From assembly GCA_002737365.1 (NCBI GenBank), contig NSIL01000022.1, positions 1 through 44,369 on the forward strand: a stretch of DNA of 44,369 nt, written 5' to 3'. This DNA is from Acidobacterium sp. (GTDB lineage Bacteria; Acidobacteriota; Vicinamibacteria; Vicinamibacterales; UBA2999). The first letter of the stretch is position 1. Every line of letters starts with the position of its first letter. The notes below the pieces were generated by a model, which saw only the letters and a program-made list of their open reading frames with translations, ran no database searches and was not told the origin of the DNA. This document shows positions 260 through 25,695 of this stretch, in pieces. The translations under genes were made by a program, and so were the position numbers.

Positions 260-610
260 TGGTGGAGGCGGCGGGAGTTGAACCCGCGTCCGAGAACACG
301 TCGTCGCAGACCACTACGTGCGTGTCTCCGTTCTCGTGTCGCAGCCGGTTAGAAACGGAGCCAAGTGCCCCGGCCGCCATCCCCGATGTGTCTCACTGCC
401 ACGCCTCAAGGCAGAACGTGGCGGCCAGCCTACTAAATGACGATCAATCCCGAGCCGTAGGCGCTCTCAAGTTGATCGCTCACCGGTATTAAGCGGCGAG
501 AGCGTAGTCTGCGTTCGCAGTTACGTTGTTTTTCCACGGGATTTACGAGGTGCATGGGCCTCGGCACGCGTTCCGCGATCCCGCACCCCCGTCGAAGCCA
601 GATCGCCCCC
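260..610 (-). ncRNA. ssrA: Transfer-messenger RNA (tmRNA)
   Basis: tmRNA rescues stalled ribosomes and adds a degradation tag, working with SmpB. The 5' end reads GGGGGCGATCTGGCTTCGAC, the classic tmRNA start. The 3' end carries a T-arm (GGTTCAACTCC) and an encoded CCA at 262-260. The 7-nt 5' end (610-604) pairs fully with the 3' acceptor strand, with one G-U pair. The tag frame lies at 518-489: GCG AAC GCA GAC TAC GCT CTC GCC GCT TAA, giving ANADYALAA, with the conserved YALAA end recognised by ClpXP-type proteases. The size of 351 nt is normal for a one-piece tmRNA. A hairpin follows the 3' end. VapBC lies upstream on the other strand. Confidence 0.95.
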
Positions 611-22364: not shown

Positions 22365-22441
22365 TGGTAGGCGCGAATAGATTCGAACTATCGACCTCCT
22401 CCGTGTCAGGGAGGCGCTCTAACCAACTGAGCTACGCGCCT
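22365..22441 (-). tRNA. tRNA-Val (GAC)
   Basis: The 77-nt cloverleaf includes an encoded CCA (22367-22365). The 5' AGGCGCG pairs with 3' CGCGCCT; the D-arm reads GCTCAGTTGGTTAGAGC, the anticodon stem CCTCC / GGAGG has loop CTGACAC with anticodon GAC, and the T-arm contains GTTCGAATC. It stands alone between hup and thrS on the same strand. Confidence 0.96.
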
Positions 22442-22495: not shown

Positions 22496-22768
22496 TCAGT
22501 TGACGGCTTTTTTCAGCGCCTTACCTGCCGAGAACCGAACCGCCTTGCGCTTGGGGATGCGAATGGTGCCGCCGGTGAGGGGATTGCGGCCTTTCCGGGC
22601 CTTGCGGATCGAGGTCTTGAAACTGCCGAAACCGACGAAGGTGACGGCGTCGCCCTTCTTGAGAGCCTTGGTCACCGTGGCGAGAAAAACGGTGACGATG
22701 CGTGACGCCTGCGCTTTGGTGGTGCCCGTGTCCTTGGCGATCTTCGCGATCAGGTCCTGCTTATTCAT
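22496..22768 (-). CDS. hup: HU-family DNA-binding protein
   Basis: This 90-residue histone-like protein bends and compacts DNA as a dimer. It shows the complete HU/IHF pattern: MNKQDLIAKIAKDTGTTKAQ, VTFVGFGSFKTSIRKAR, the DNA-contacting arm with GRNPLTGGTIRIPKRKAVRF, and SAGKALKKAVN at the end. The motif GRNP(x)TG and the Pro at the arm tip are intact. Its ATG overlaps the stop of the S41 gene by one base (TGATG), so it is probably co-translated with it as well as having its own promoter. Confidence 0.97.
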   Translation of the reverse strand: MNKQDLIAKIAKDTGTTKAQASRIVTVFLATVTKALKKGDAVTFVGFGSFKTSIRKARKGRNPLTGGTIRIPKRKAVRFSAGKALKKAVN

Positions 22769-23940
22769 CAGGCCGCGGCCTTCACGGCCAGCGATTCAAT
22801 CGCCTTGTCGAGCATGGCGTCGGTGGTGGGCGGGGCCTGGCCAAACTCCACATCAGGCTGGTCCACCGGCAGGTCGGGGACCAGGCCCTTCTCGTGGATG
22901 GCCACGCTGTCGGGCGTCAGGTAGATCAAGTGGGTCAGCATCAGCGCACTGCCGTCGGGCAGCCGAACCAGTTTCTGCCGCGCCGCGCGGCCGAACGTTC
23001 GCTCGCCGACCGTCGAGGCGCGCTTGTTGCCCGACAGTGCCGCGGTAAAGACTTCAGCGGCGCCCGACGTGCCGTTGTCCGTCAGCACTGCCATCGTCAG
23101 CGTGATGGCGCCATCGCCGGCGGCGGCCAAGACCGCTTCCTTCTCTTTGCCGCGATCCTGCCGATAGGTGAGCACGCCCGACTTGACGAACAGCCGCGCG
23201 GCCGCGAGGCCGGTGTCGGTCTCGCCGAAGGCGGTACCGCGAAGGTCGAGGATCAGGCGCGTCGCGCCCGCCTTGGACAACGACGCGACTTCAGCCTTCA
23301 ACTGATCCGAGGTGGCCTTGGTGAACTCCGCGACGCGGAGGTAACCAATGCCGGGCGCCGCAAGGCGCGACTTGACCGGCGCGGCGGGCAAGTCTTCGCG
23401 GCCGAGCTCGAGGTCGTGCGGCTCGGCGGCGTTGCCGCGCAACACCGTGAGGCGCACCTTGGTGCCGGCCTTGCCCCGTAGCAGACGCTGACCTTCGTAA
23501 ACCGTGCTGTCGCGTGTCGACTGGCCATCGATGGCACGGATGTAGTCGCCGGCCATCAGTCCGGCGCGCGCCGCAGGCGAGCCGTCACGCGAGGCAATCA
23601 CGCGGAGGTAGTACTGACGCGTCAGCTCAAGTCCGGTCTGCGCCGAGCCACCGGCATCGCCCTTGTCGAGCACTTTCACCTGCGCCACGTCGAGATAGGC
23701 ACTATCGGGATCCAGACCATCCGCCAGACCGTGCATGGCGCCGAGCATGACCTTGTCGATGTTCACTTCCTCGACGTAGTTGCTGTTGATCAGCGAGACG
23801 ACGTCCTCGAAGATGCGGAGATACTGATAACTGTCTTCGCGGGCCAACGCGCTCTTGCCCAAAAAGCCGCCGATGGCGGCGAACGCAATGACGGGAACCG
23901 ACACCGCCAAGACGAGAACCCGGCCGCGAATCTTCATCAT
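22768..23940 (-). CDS. S41/CtpA-like protein, catalytic dyad replaced
   Basis: This 390-residue exported protein has a signal or anchor helix (VLVLAVSVPVIAFAAIGGFLG), a short N-terminal helical part (YLRIFEDVVSLINSNYVEEV), a PDZ domain (about 95-175; LRVIASRDGSPAARAGLMAGD) and a C-terminal S41 peptidase domain. By alignment with E. coli Prc, where Ser430 and Lys455 are 25 apart, the matching positions are Gly293 (in TSGAAE) and Arg318 (in RTFGRAA), also 25 apart. A Ser sits one residue earlier (S292). It is therefore either a pseudoprotease or a variant subgroup. Start 23940 follows a GGAGGA site and overlaps the EnvC-like remnant (ATGA). Confidence 0.88.
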   Translation of the reverse strand: MMKIRGRVLVLAVSVPVIAFAAIGGFLGKSALAREDSYQYLRIFEDVVSLINSNYVEEVNIDKVMLGAMHGLADGLDPDSAYLDVAQVKVLDKGDAGGSAQTGLELTRQYYLRVIASRDGSPAARAGLMAGDYIRAIDGQSTRDSTVYEGQRLLRGKAGTKVRLTVLRGNAAEPHDLELGREDLPAAPVKSRLAAPGIGYLRVAEFTKATSDQLKAEVASLSKAGATRLILDLRGTAFGETDTGLAAARLFVKSGVLTYRQDRGKEKEAVLAAAGDGAITLTMAVLTDNGTSGAAEVFTAALSGNKRASTVGERTFGRAARQKLVRLPDGSALMLTHLIYLTPDSVAIHEKGLVPDLPVDQPDVEFGQAPPTTDAMLDKAIESLAVKAAA

Positions 23941-24146
23941 TTTCTCCTCCGCCATTGTACGGGATCGACCGGTCGGCCGTCGATGCGCACTTCGAAGTAC
24001 AACGCGGCTTCTCCGGCCAGGTGCTCACGGGCGATCTCGCGTTCGAGCTCGAGCCTCCGCAAGTCGCCGAACACCGTTCGCGCCTGCGCGGCCAGCACCA
24101 TCATGGCGAAGACCACCGCGCCGAGCGCACCAACCCCAAGCCTCAA
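23937..24146 (-). pseudogene. Reduced EnvC/M23-like gene, ends only
   Basis: The frame ends with AGEAALYFEVRIDGRPVDPVQW, the hallmark C-terminal strand of EnvC-type M23 murein hydrolase activators. Only about 45 residues precede it: a hydrophobic helix (LGVGALGAVVFAMMVLAA) and a short charged helix (LRRLELEREIAREH). The coiled coil and the LytM domain, normally about 300 residues, are gone. The gene still lies directly before the S41 gene, where EnvC usually lies, and overlaps it by ATGA. I take it as an in-frame internal deletion. Because the frame and coupling are kept, a small translated product with a role in expressing the S41 gene is possible. The start (TTG 24146) is uncertain and overlaps the heptad repeat. 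Confidence 0.6.
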
Positions 24147-24184: not shown

Positions 24185-24634
24185 GTGCGTGTCCTGGGCA
24201 TCGACTATGGCGCGCGTCGCATCGGCCTGGCGCTGAGCGACGCCACCGCGACCCTGGCCTCGCCGTGGCGGCTGTTGCCACGGCCGCCGTCAGACGCGGA
24301 GACCATCCGCCTGATCGTCGCCGAAGTCACGGCACTGGCCCAGGCCGAAGACGGACTTGAAGCCGTGGTCGTCGGCTGGCCGCGGCGGCTCGACGGCACC
24401 CCCAACAAGCAAACCCCAATCGTCGAGACCTTCGCGCGGACACTGGAATCTAAGGTCACCGTGCCGGTGGTGCTGCAGGACGAGCGTCTGTCCAGCGTGG
24501 AGGCAGAGTCGCGCCTTGCGGTGGACGAAAAAGACTGGCGCAAGCGCAAGGCCAAGTTGGATGCGGCCGCTGCCGCGGTGATTCTGCAGGACTATCTCGA
24601 TGCGCGGCCTCGCGCCACCTCCGACAGATTCTGA
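24185..24634 (+). CDS. ruvX: RuvX/YqgF-family Holliday junction resolvase
   Basis: This 149-residue RNase H-like protein acts in pre-16S rRNA 5' processing and possibly Holliday junction resolution. The pattern is complete: VLGIDYGARRIGLALSD with catalytic Asp, VVVGWPRRLDGTPNKQT, VVLQDERLSSVEAE with conserved Glu, and KLDAAAAAVILQDYLD with the final Asp. GTG 24185 was chosen because the family begins directly with the first strand; a longer in-frame reading would pass through the promoter and tandem repeat. mltG starts two bases after the stop, forming a ruvX-mltG operon as in many bacteria. Confidence 0.94.
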   Translation: MRVLGIDYGARRIGLALSDATATLASPWRLLPRPPSDAETIRLIVAEVTALAQAEDGLEAVVVGWPRRLDGTPNKQTPIVETFARTLESKVTVPVVLQDERLSSVEAESRLAVDEKDWRKRKAKLDAAAAAVILQDYLDARPRATSDRF

Positions 24635-24636
24635 AC

Positions 24637-25695
24637 ATGATGCGATGGCTCGGACGACTGGCAATCCTGCTCGTGATTCTCGGTGTCGTCGCCGGCGGTG
24701 GCGCGTGGTGGGCCTACACACGCGTCCAGGCGCCCTATCGGGGGGCCGCTGACGCCGAAACCTTTGTGGACATCCCGGCCGGCACGGGGCCGATCGGGAT
24801 TGGCGCGCGGCTCGTCAGCGCCGGCGTCGTGCAAGACGCCTGGACCTTTCGGGTGGCCGTGCTGCTCAGCGGCCGCGCTCGCGAACTGAAGGCCGGTGAG
24901 TATCGCTTCGACGCGCCCATCACCGCCCTCGAGGTCGTCGACACGATCGCGCGTGGCGACGTCGACACGCGGATGCTGACGTTCCGCGAGGGCCTGACGA
25001 TGGCGGAAATGGCGGTGGTCTACGAGCAGCGCGGATTTGGCGTCGCGGCGGATTTCATCACCGCCGGGCGGAATGCGAGCCTGATCAACGACCTCGACCC
25101 CACGGCGCGCGATCTCGAGGGCTACCTGTTTCCAGAGACCTACGCGCTGCCGCGCCACACGCCCGCCGCTCAGCTGGTGGCGCAGATGGTGGCCGGCTTC
25201 AAGAAGGCCTTCGACGAGGGATTGCGGTCGGCCGCGGCCGCCGACGGGTTGACGGTGCGGCAGGCCGTGACCGTGGCGTCGTTGGTGGAAAAAGAGACGG
25301 CAAGTGGCGACGAGCGGCCGCTCGTGGCCGCGGTGTATCGCAATCGGATGAGAAGTCGGATGGGGATGCAGGCTGATCCCACCGTGATCTACGCGCTGCA
25401 GAAGGCCGGGAAGTACGACGGCAACCTGTCAAAGGCTGACTTGCAGTTCGACTCTCCGTACAATACGTATCGCTATGCGGGGCTGCCGCCGGGTCCGATT
25501 GCGGCGCCTGGCCGGGCGTCGTTAGTGGCGGTGGTGAATCCGGCCGCCGTCGACTACCTGTATTTCGTCAGTCGCAACGACGGCACGCATGTCTTCGCGA
25601 CGACGCTGGCCGAGCACAACAAGAACGTCTTCACCTGGCAGGTTGAGTACTTCAGGAATCTTCGCCGGGCTCAGGGGTCGGGCACCCGGAAGTAG
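24637..25695 (+). CDS. mltG: Endolytic murein transglycosylase MltG
   Basis: This 352-residue inner-membrane enzyme cleaves nascent glycan strands and sets their length. It has one N-terminal membrane helix (RLAILLVILGVVAGGGAWW), a LysM-like region (IPAGTGPIGIGARLVSAGVV), then the YceG catalytic domain: LFPETYALPR, ASLVEKETA with catalytic Glu218 (the same number as in E. coli), VYRNRM, MGMQADPTVIYAL and SPYNTYRYAGLPPGPI. The final FATTLAEHNKNV block is also typical. The gene is intact and co-transcribed with ruvX. Confidence 0.95.
   Translation: MMRWLGRLAILLVILGVVAGGGAWWAYTRVQAPYRGAADAETFVDIPAGTGPIGIGARLVSAGVVQDAWTFRVAVLLSGRARELKAGEYRFDAPITALEVVDTIARGDVDTRMLTFREGLTMAEMAVVYEQRGFGVAADFITAGRNASLINDLDPTARDLEGYLFPETYALPRHTPAAQLVAQMVAGFKKAFDEGLRSAAAADGLTVRQAVTVASLVEKETASGDERPLVAAVYRNRMRSRMGMQADPTVIYALQKAGKYDGNLSKADLQFDSPYNTYRYAGLPPGPIAAPGRASLVAVVNPAAVDYLYFVSRNDGTHVFATTLAEHNKNVFTWQVEYFRNLRRAQGSGTRK

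Follow-up and report, generated by a model that had tools for sequence, protein, structure and literature searches.

A CtpA-type protein of the S41 family with replaced catalytic serine and lysine, often encoded next to an EnvC-like gene in Acidobacteriota

The 44,369-nucleotide stretch of acidobacterial DNA analysed in this study (contig NSIL01000022.1; referred to below as the window) carries a gene for an S41-family protein of the CtpA type which, judging from its sequence, has very probably lost Ser-Lys proteolysis. C-terminal processing proteases control cell-wall hydrolases via degradation. The best explanation of our observations is that proteolysis was lost and the protein was kept, and that it binds without cutting, in a holding role in cell-wall control; we assign this explanation a probability of roughly 0.45. 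We put forward more tentatively a wider proposal, namely that the S41 proteins encoded at the envC-ctpA position in Acidobacteriota ceased to be proteolytic at an early stage, perhaps in a single event, and constitute a conserved, non-cutting holder of wall hydrolases beside a separate Ser/Lys CtpA. The original prediction, made from the letters of the window, had not recognized how widespread the disabled state is, nor the envC-ctpA-type arrangement, nor the shortened envC gene. The features of the window that are discussed in the text are summarized in Table 1.

Table 1. Location of the S41 gene, its neighbours and the functional positions of its product
Feature	Position	Strand	Remarks
tmRNA	260-610	(-)	tag ANADYALAA
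tRNA-Val(gac)	22365-22441	(-)	
HU-type DNA-binding protein	22496..22768	(-)	start overlaps the S41 stop (TGATG)
Putative S41/CtpA-type pseudoprotease	22768..23940	(-)	390 aa + stop; ATG at 23940, stop 22770-22768
Predicted hydrophobic N-terminal helix	residues 5-30 of the S41 protein		AlphaFold2 model
PDZ domain	residues about 100-180 of the S41 protein		sequence + model
S41 core	residues about 195-360 of the S41 protein		sequence + model
C-terminal helix	residues 375-389 of the S41 protein		model
Ser292 codon	23065..23067	(-)	one residue before the nucleophile position
Gly293 codon	23062..23064	(-)	nucleophile position (Ser302 of P. aeruginosa CtpA)
Arg318 codon	22987..22989	(-)	general-base (Lys) position
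Gln322 codon	22975..22977	(-)	third residue of the Ser-Lys-Gln set; Q in 134/151 orthologues
EnvC-like remnant	23937..24146	(-)	start TTG uncertain; stop overlaps the S41 start (ATGA)
RuvX	24185..24634	(+)	divergent neighbour
YceG-like protein (lytic transglycosylase)	24637..25695	(+)	divergent neighbour

The S41 gene and its predicted product

The original prediction placed an S41 protein at this locus; the gene is real, but its strand (minus) had been omitted. The ATG at 23940 is the preferred start codon, because it forms an ATGA overlap with the stop codon of the preceding small frame and has GGAGGAG ahead of it, and an alternative upstream ATG is possible at 23955. In Pfam, the protein matches Peptidase_S41 (PF03572; 3.8e-33, 114.9 bits against a cut-off of 24) and, at residues 116-168, between the N-terminal helices and the core, PDZ_6 (PF17820; 5.5e-13); by these values, both matches are well past the chance level. 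The two marks of the S41-family fold are therefore found in the window protein, i.e. a core that scores above the cut-off and a PDZ domain in its place. With the NCBIfam profile prc (TIGR00225) it obtained 195.2 bits, which is under the curated cut-off of 218.6.

The AlphaFold2 model of the protein (pLDDT 87.7, pTM 0.84) has values below 50 only at residues 1-34. Its fold matches include CtpA of H. pylori (Z 38.2), the CtpA-LbcA complex of P. aeruginosa (Z 37.3), CtpB S309A in the resting state (Z 35.6) and IRBP (Z 18.8). In the model, the helix 294-304 begins directly after G293, and R318 is located between the strands 308-312 and 320-326.

The gene was also compared with eight genes of the same genus, one of them partial (L070). 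The dN/dS values (Nei-Gojobori) of these pairs are 0.077-0.189 for the whole gene and 0.10-0.28 for the S41 core; by this measure, the gene is under purifying selection.

Residues of the active site

The register of the active site was taken from solved structures, by aligning the window protein with P. aeruginosa CtpA (7rpq) and with the S302A form of that enzyme (7rqh). The printed rows of the two structures show one visible difference, which faces G293, and the Lys of the FGKG motif faces R318; thus, the nucleophile and the base are both replaced. This bears out the earlier claim that both dyad positions (Gly293 and Arg318) are replaced, and the numbering given for S292, G293, E296 and R318 was correct, as was the spacing of 25 between G293 and R318. 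The description of the site as a dyad stands for Ser and Lys, but the catalytic set has three members, and the third of them (Gln322) is retained. The PDB title of an H. pylori CtpA structure, S300A/K325A/Q329A, names three catalytic residues, of which Q329 corresponds to Q322 by spacing.

Two further elements differ from those of Ser/Lys members. The LRNNPGG loop, whose residues N236 and G238 have an oxyanion role, is lost, and the window protein reads LRGTAFGE at this site. N236 and the first Gly of the loop (G238) are present in 24/24 Ser/Lys members, whereas position 238 is G in just 22 of the 151 Ser/Lys-less orthologues (a count that leaves out the duplicates L002 and L141, the loci L061-L159 and rows gapped at 293 or 318), and position 236 is T in 72 of them, S in 31, C in 15, V in 12, with other residues in the rest. 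D232, R234, E296 and G317 stay conserved while positions 293, 318, N236 and G238 change. The second altered element is the GLG loop of the PDZ domain, whose first Gly (101) has a role in peptide binding. This residue is G in 24/24 Ser/Lys members versus 29/151 of the other proteins and is Q in the window protein, while the second Gly (103), according to the alignment columns, is retained. The PDZ domain and the fold had been described as intact, which is right for the fold but not for this Gly. When compared with an active C-terminal processing protease (CtpA, CtpB or Prc), the window protein therefore has the Gln and is devoid of the Ser, the Lys, the LRNNPGG loop and the complete PDZ GLG.

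Distribution of the disabled state

Counting each genome once, the Ser/Lys pair is absent in 157 of the 159 Acidobacteriota genomes in which both positions are readable, in a sample that is uneven and favours genomes with strong matches. In the 159 genomes, 44 family codes are represented, and both genomes that retain the pair (G183 and G195; loci L255 and L250) belong to a single family, f41. Of 80 named loci taken as a further sample, which overlaps in part with the first, 79 are readable and none has Ser/Lys. A single-genome error or a recent mutation was considered and ruled out, since the disabled state is widespread among orthologues.

An orthologue was matched in 56 of 60 genomes searched, the genome of the window included (58 loci, as two genes are each divided between contigs), and none was found in the other four (G015, G016, G019 and G036), which are 78-87% complete. 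Both positions are visible in 54 of the 58 loci: position 293 is occupied by G (43), S (3), Q (3), N (2), R (2) or Y (1), and position 318 by R (50), S (2), L (1) or I (1). Among the 151 Ser/Lys-less orthologues, position 318 may also be L, A, S, M, E, V, Q, D, I, T or F, and position 293 ranges across the sets over G, C, N, Q, S, R, A, Y, E and K. A survey of homologues at the TSGAAE and FGRAA sites had been proposed as a check of the original prediction; it shows that G293 (120/151) and R318 (98/151) are common, but that S292 is present in just 54/151.

The named records with close homologues mostly bear the titles Acidobacteria or Acidobacteriota, and several of them Vicinamibacterales or Luteitalea. 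The locus was also present in metagenome-assembled genomes titled Cyanobacteria, Acidimicrobiia, Candidatus Sulfopaludibacter and Bifidobacterium breve (L064, L065, L070, L094, L101, L120 and L124), so that the titles of these records are probably wrong.

The genome from which the window originates (3.05 Mb, 54 contigs) encodes two S41 proteins, that of the window and a canonical CtpA with NSASASE and FGKA. Ser and Lys are retained in this paralogue (L001), in 20 fetched paralogues from other genomes and in L188; in the genomes for which this was looked at, the disabled protein is accompanied by a Ser/Lys paralogue.

The search of the phylum, performed with a profile of disabled members (E <= 1e-60), matched 110 of 199 genomes, 19 of them of the window's own class; 40 of the 91 matches outside this class were fetched. 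The search of the own class covered 149 genomes, and part of its matches were fetched. From the 89 genomes without a match at E <= 1e-60, 20 were searched at E <= 1e-5, which yielded 30 fetched loci. Five of these (L284, L286, L304, L311 and L312) have a strong EnvC match and all five are without Ser/Lys; four more (L288, L309, L310 and L313) are without Ser/Lys and without an EnvC match in the available flank. The remaining loci bear Ser and Lys, including L287, with a weak EnvC-profile neighbour (2.7e-8), and L308 (G197), a CtpA-sized frame with no EnvC in the available flank, which might be an intact orthologue. Because L308 and L287 bear both residues, an intact orthologue is possible in some of the weak-match lineages.

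Phylogeny and history of the loss

A quick tree of 100 rows was constructed, whose root was not inferred. In this tree, a branch with an SH-aLRT value of 100 separates the orthologues, including those of f41, from P. aeruginosa CtpA and the paralogues. P. aeruginosa CtpA, whose row in the alignment is one Ala short, pairs with L188 among the Ser/Lys paralogues, outside the clade of the window protein, which is therefore the counterpart of this CtpA by position and not by tree. The view that the two are orthologues was dropped, since the tree gives no such grouping.

Family f41 sits among disabled deep branches of the quick tree. A tree that holds all 78 disabled rows together was not rejected (p-AU 0.524, lnL 0.97 higher), so one loss, with f41 outside, fits equally well as repeated loss or regain; the deep part of the tree is weak, because several of its rows have long branches. 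It is possible that there was a single loss and that f41 is the lineage in which activity was retained.

Gene neighbourhood and the shortened envC gene

In many relatives, the S41 gene is directly preceded, on its own strand, by a gene whose coiled-coil product carries an M23 domain at its C-terminus. The protein of locus L062 matches Pfam M23 (5.5e-24), its PDB matches include EnvC (5.7e-20), and EnvC is also its best NCBIfam match (4.6e-24, 85.1 bits against a cut-off of 270). Of 159 genomes, 88 have an EnvC-like gene as the immediate upstream neighbour (the remnant in the window counted), none was found in 65 and 6 are undecided, a count in which distant EnvC genes may be missed, since the EnvC profile was built from members of the window's own order. 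The f41 loci (L250 and L255) also have an EnvC-like gene upstream, together with a second frame that is presumably RNase III.

The YceG-like neighbour at 24637..25695 is a protein that we take to be MltG. RuvX or MltG is encoded within 5 kb in at least 100 of 161 genomes, and in at least 78 of the 111 genomes with at least 2.5 kb of upstream sequence available; both counts are lower bounds, because many loci have a flank of 1.5 kb. A match to HU lies downstream in 40/161 genomes, in 38 of them on the same strand. MltG was found directly downstream, on the same strand, in all ten genomes of family f16 (loci L178-L187). P. aeruginosa has an envC-ctpA-PA5135 operon (PMC12569750); the arrangement itself is thus already known.

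In the window, the EnvC-like gene is shortened to an N-terminal piece fused in frame to the last residues, with approximately 834 nt (approximately 278 codons) gone. The remnant starts as does the coiled coil of its relatives (AQARTVFGDLRRLE) and continues with their final residues (ALYFEVRIDGRPVDPVQW). Compared with L062, its match breaks between 582 and 1417-1420, and the missing length of approximately 834 nt is a multiple of three. No Pfam match of its own was obtained for the remnant (23937-24146). In genomes of the same genus, the EnvC-like gene is near-complete in 7/8, and in the eighth (G003) it is cut by the end of the contig; the deletion in the window may be real or an assembly fault. 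Elsewhere in its own genome there are four M23 genes, three of which match the EnvC profile over the M23 part only, as well as one Amidase_3 protein, which belongs to a type of enzyme activated by EnvC (PMC12569750).

Proposed role and alternative explanations

We propose that this S41 protein lost proteolysis, yet was retained in the genome, and that it would be exported, as the predicted N-terminal hydrophobic helix suggests. The exported protein would still bind partners via its PDZ domain and cleft, and would hold them without cutting. Its likely partners would be cell-wall hydrolases or their activators (an EnvC-like LytM protein, an amidase or MltG), and such binding would restrain or place the hydrolases, so that the protein would be the naturally occurring equivalent of the engineered trap CtpA-S302A. 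Among the neighbouring genes are those for the lytic transglycosylase MltG and for a LytM protein resembling EnvC, which are of the kinds proposed as partners. EnvC cannot be the sole partner, since 65/159 genomes are without an adjacent EnvC-like gene and the window contains a remnant; tail binding may also differ, because the first Gly of the PDZ loop is lost (122/151 not G). Further points against the explanation are that the trap of P. aeruginosa works with the adaptor LbcA, that P. aeruginosa CtpA groups with L188 on the paralogue side of the tree, and that f41 (2 genomes) retains Ser-Lys. The original prediction had suggested a scaffold protein evolved from a protease. Its pseudoprotease part agrees with the 157/159 genomes without the pair, the purifying selection and the predicted CtpA fold, while the scaffold part is plausible and is what we infer.

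The protein could instead be a regulator of the other S41 protein of its cell, the Ser/Lys CtpA paralogue (G000:C12), acting through mixed oligomers or through competition for an adaptor or substrate. CtpA-type proteins oligomerise, the model shows helices at the N-terminus and one at the C-terminus, D374, L377 and A380 are 94-98% conserved, and both proteins are present in the same genome; however, the identity to the paralogue is 29% and the two genes are on different contigs, and we consider such regulation unlikely. Somewhat lower still is the probability that the S41 fold has become a binder of small molecules or lipids, as in vertebrate RBP3/IRBP. The model does match the IRBP module (Z up to 18.8), and RBP3 is described as being without the protease catalytic residues and carrying retinoid and fatty acid (PMC11750400), but CtpA matches far closer (Z 37-38) and the PDZ domain is kept.

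The remaining two explanations are much less probable than these. Shifted catalysis, in which Ser292 or another residue would be the nucleophile with a different base, had been raised in the original prediction. Ser292 adjoins the old nucleophile position and is Ser in 29/55 near relatives and 55/80 named loci, R318 is R in 50/54 near relatives, and family f16 has Cys at 293 in 10/10. In the 151 orthologues, however, the commonest residue at position 292 is A (73), followed by S (54), with V (11), G (5), T (3), Y (2) or another residue (3) in the rest, and none of these proteins has a Lys at 316-320; with Ser in so few of them, shifted catalysis via S292 is unlikely. The Cys293 of f16 is always paired with a second Cys in the loop 234-244 (10/10 versus 1/165 other sequences), which suggests a disulphide capping the dead site, and a role of this Cys293 as a nucleophile is possible. 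The least probable of all is a decaying pseudogene, with the EnvC deletion as a second step of the decay. The shortened EnvC in the window and the 4/60 genomes without an orthologue would agree with it, but dN/dS is 0.077-0.189, there are no internal stops in the listed matches and the branch of the window is short (0.08), and decay was rejected on dN/dS and the open frames.

Significance

The literature searched, in which most subscription journals are missing, yielded no pseudoprotease of Acidobacteriota at the envC-ctpA position, and among the matches listed for inactive S41/CtpA proteins most concern rhomboids. Disabled relatives of the S41 family are already known, e.g. RBP3 (PMC11750400). 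Bacteria that retain a gene of this kind in its known place after loss of the residues for cutting would demonstrate that binding by itself merits retention. If the wider proposal is true, wall hydrolases are controlled by sequestration instead of degradation across much of a phylum, and the pseudoprotease has outlived EnvC in some lineages, perhaps in that of the window. The disabled members, the f41 proteins with Ser-Lys and the Ser/Lys paralogue form natural matched sets with which holding could be separated from cutting. For annotators, it is of importance that profile searches label these proteins S41 peptidases, which they very probably are not.

Comparison with known systems

The S41 protein CtpA of P. 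aeruginosa, a component of the LbcA-CtpA complex, has the same domain order as the window protein, a matching fold (Z 37.3) and the best PDB sequence match (1e-47). It is active with Ser302 and a Lys, in place of which the window protein has Gly293 and Arg318. The ctpA gene adjoins envC, as do many relatives of the window gene (PMC12569750 for P. aeruginosa). The engineered inactive form CtpA-S302A traps MepM without degrading it (PMC6050968). The window protein is similarly without the nucleophile and with the fold kept, trapping being putative in its case; CtpA-S302A, however, is a laboratory mutant that keeps the Lys and works with LbcA, whereas the window protein represents a natural state in which the Lys and the loop are also gone. 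Vertebrate RBP3/IRBP shares with the window protein an S41-type fold without the protease residues (PMC11750400), but it is a ligand carrier of the eye, has no envC setting and reaches a Z of only up to 18.8. The EnvC-linked S41 proteins of f41 (L255 and L250) resemble the window clade in their side of the tree, in KRFGY within the PDZ domain and in the EnvC-like gene upstream; they differ in having kept the Ser, the Lys, the N-x-GG loop and the PDZ GxG, and are presumably active.
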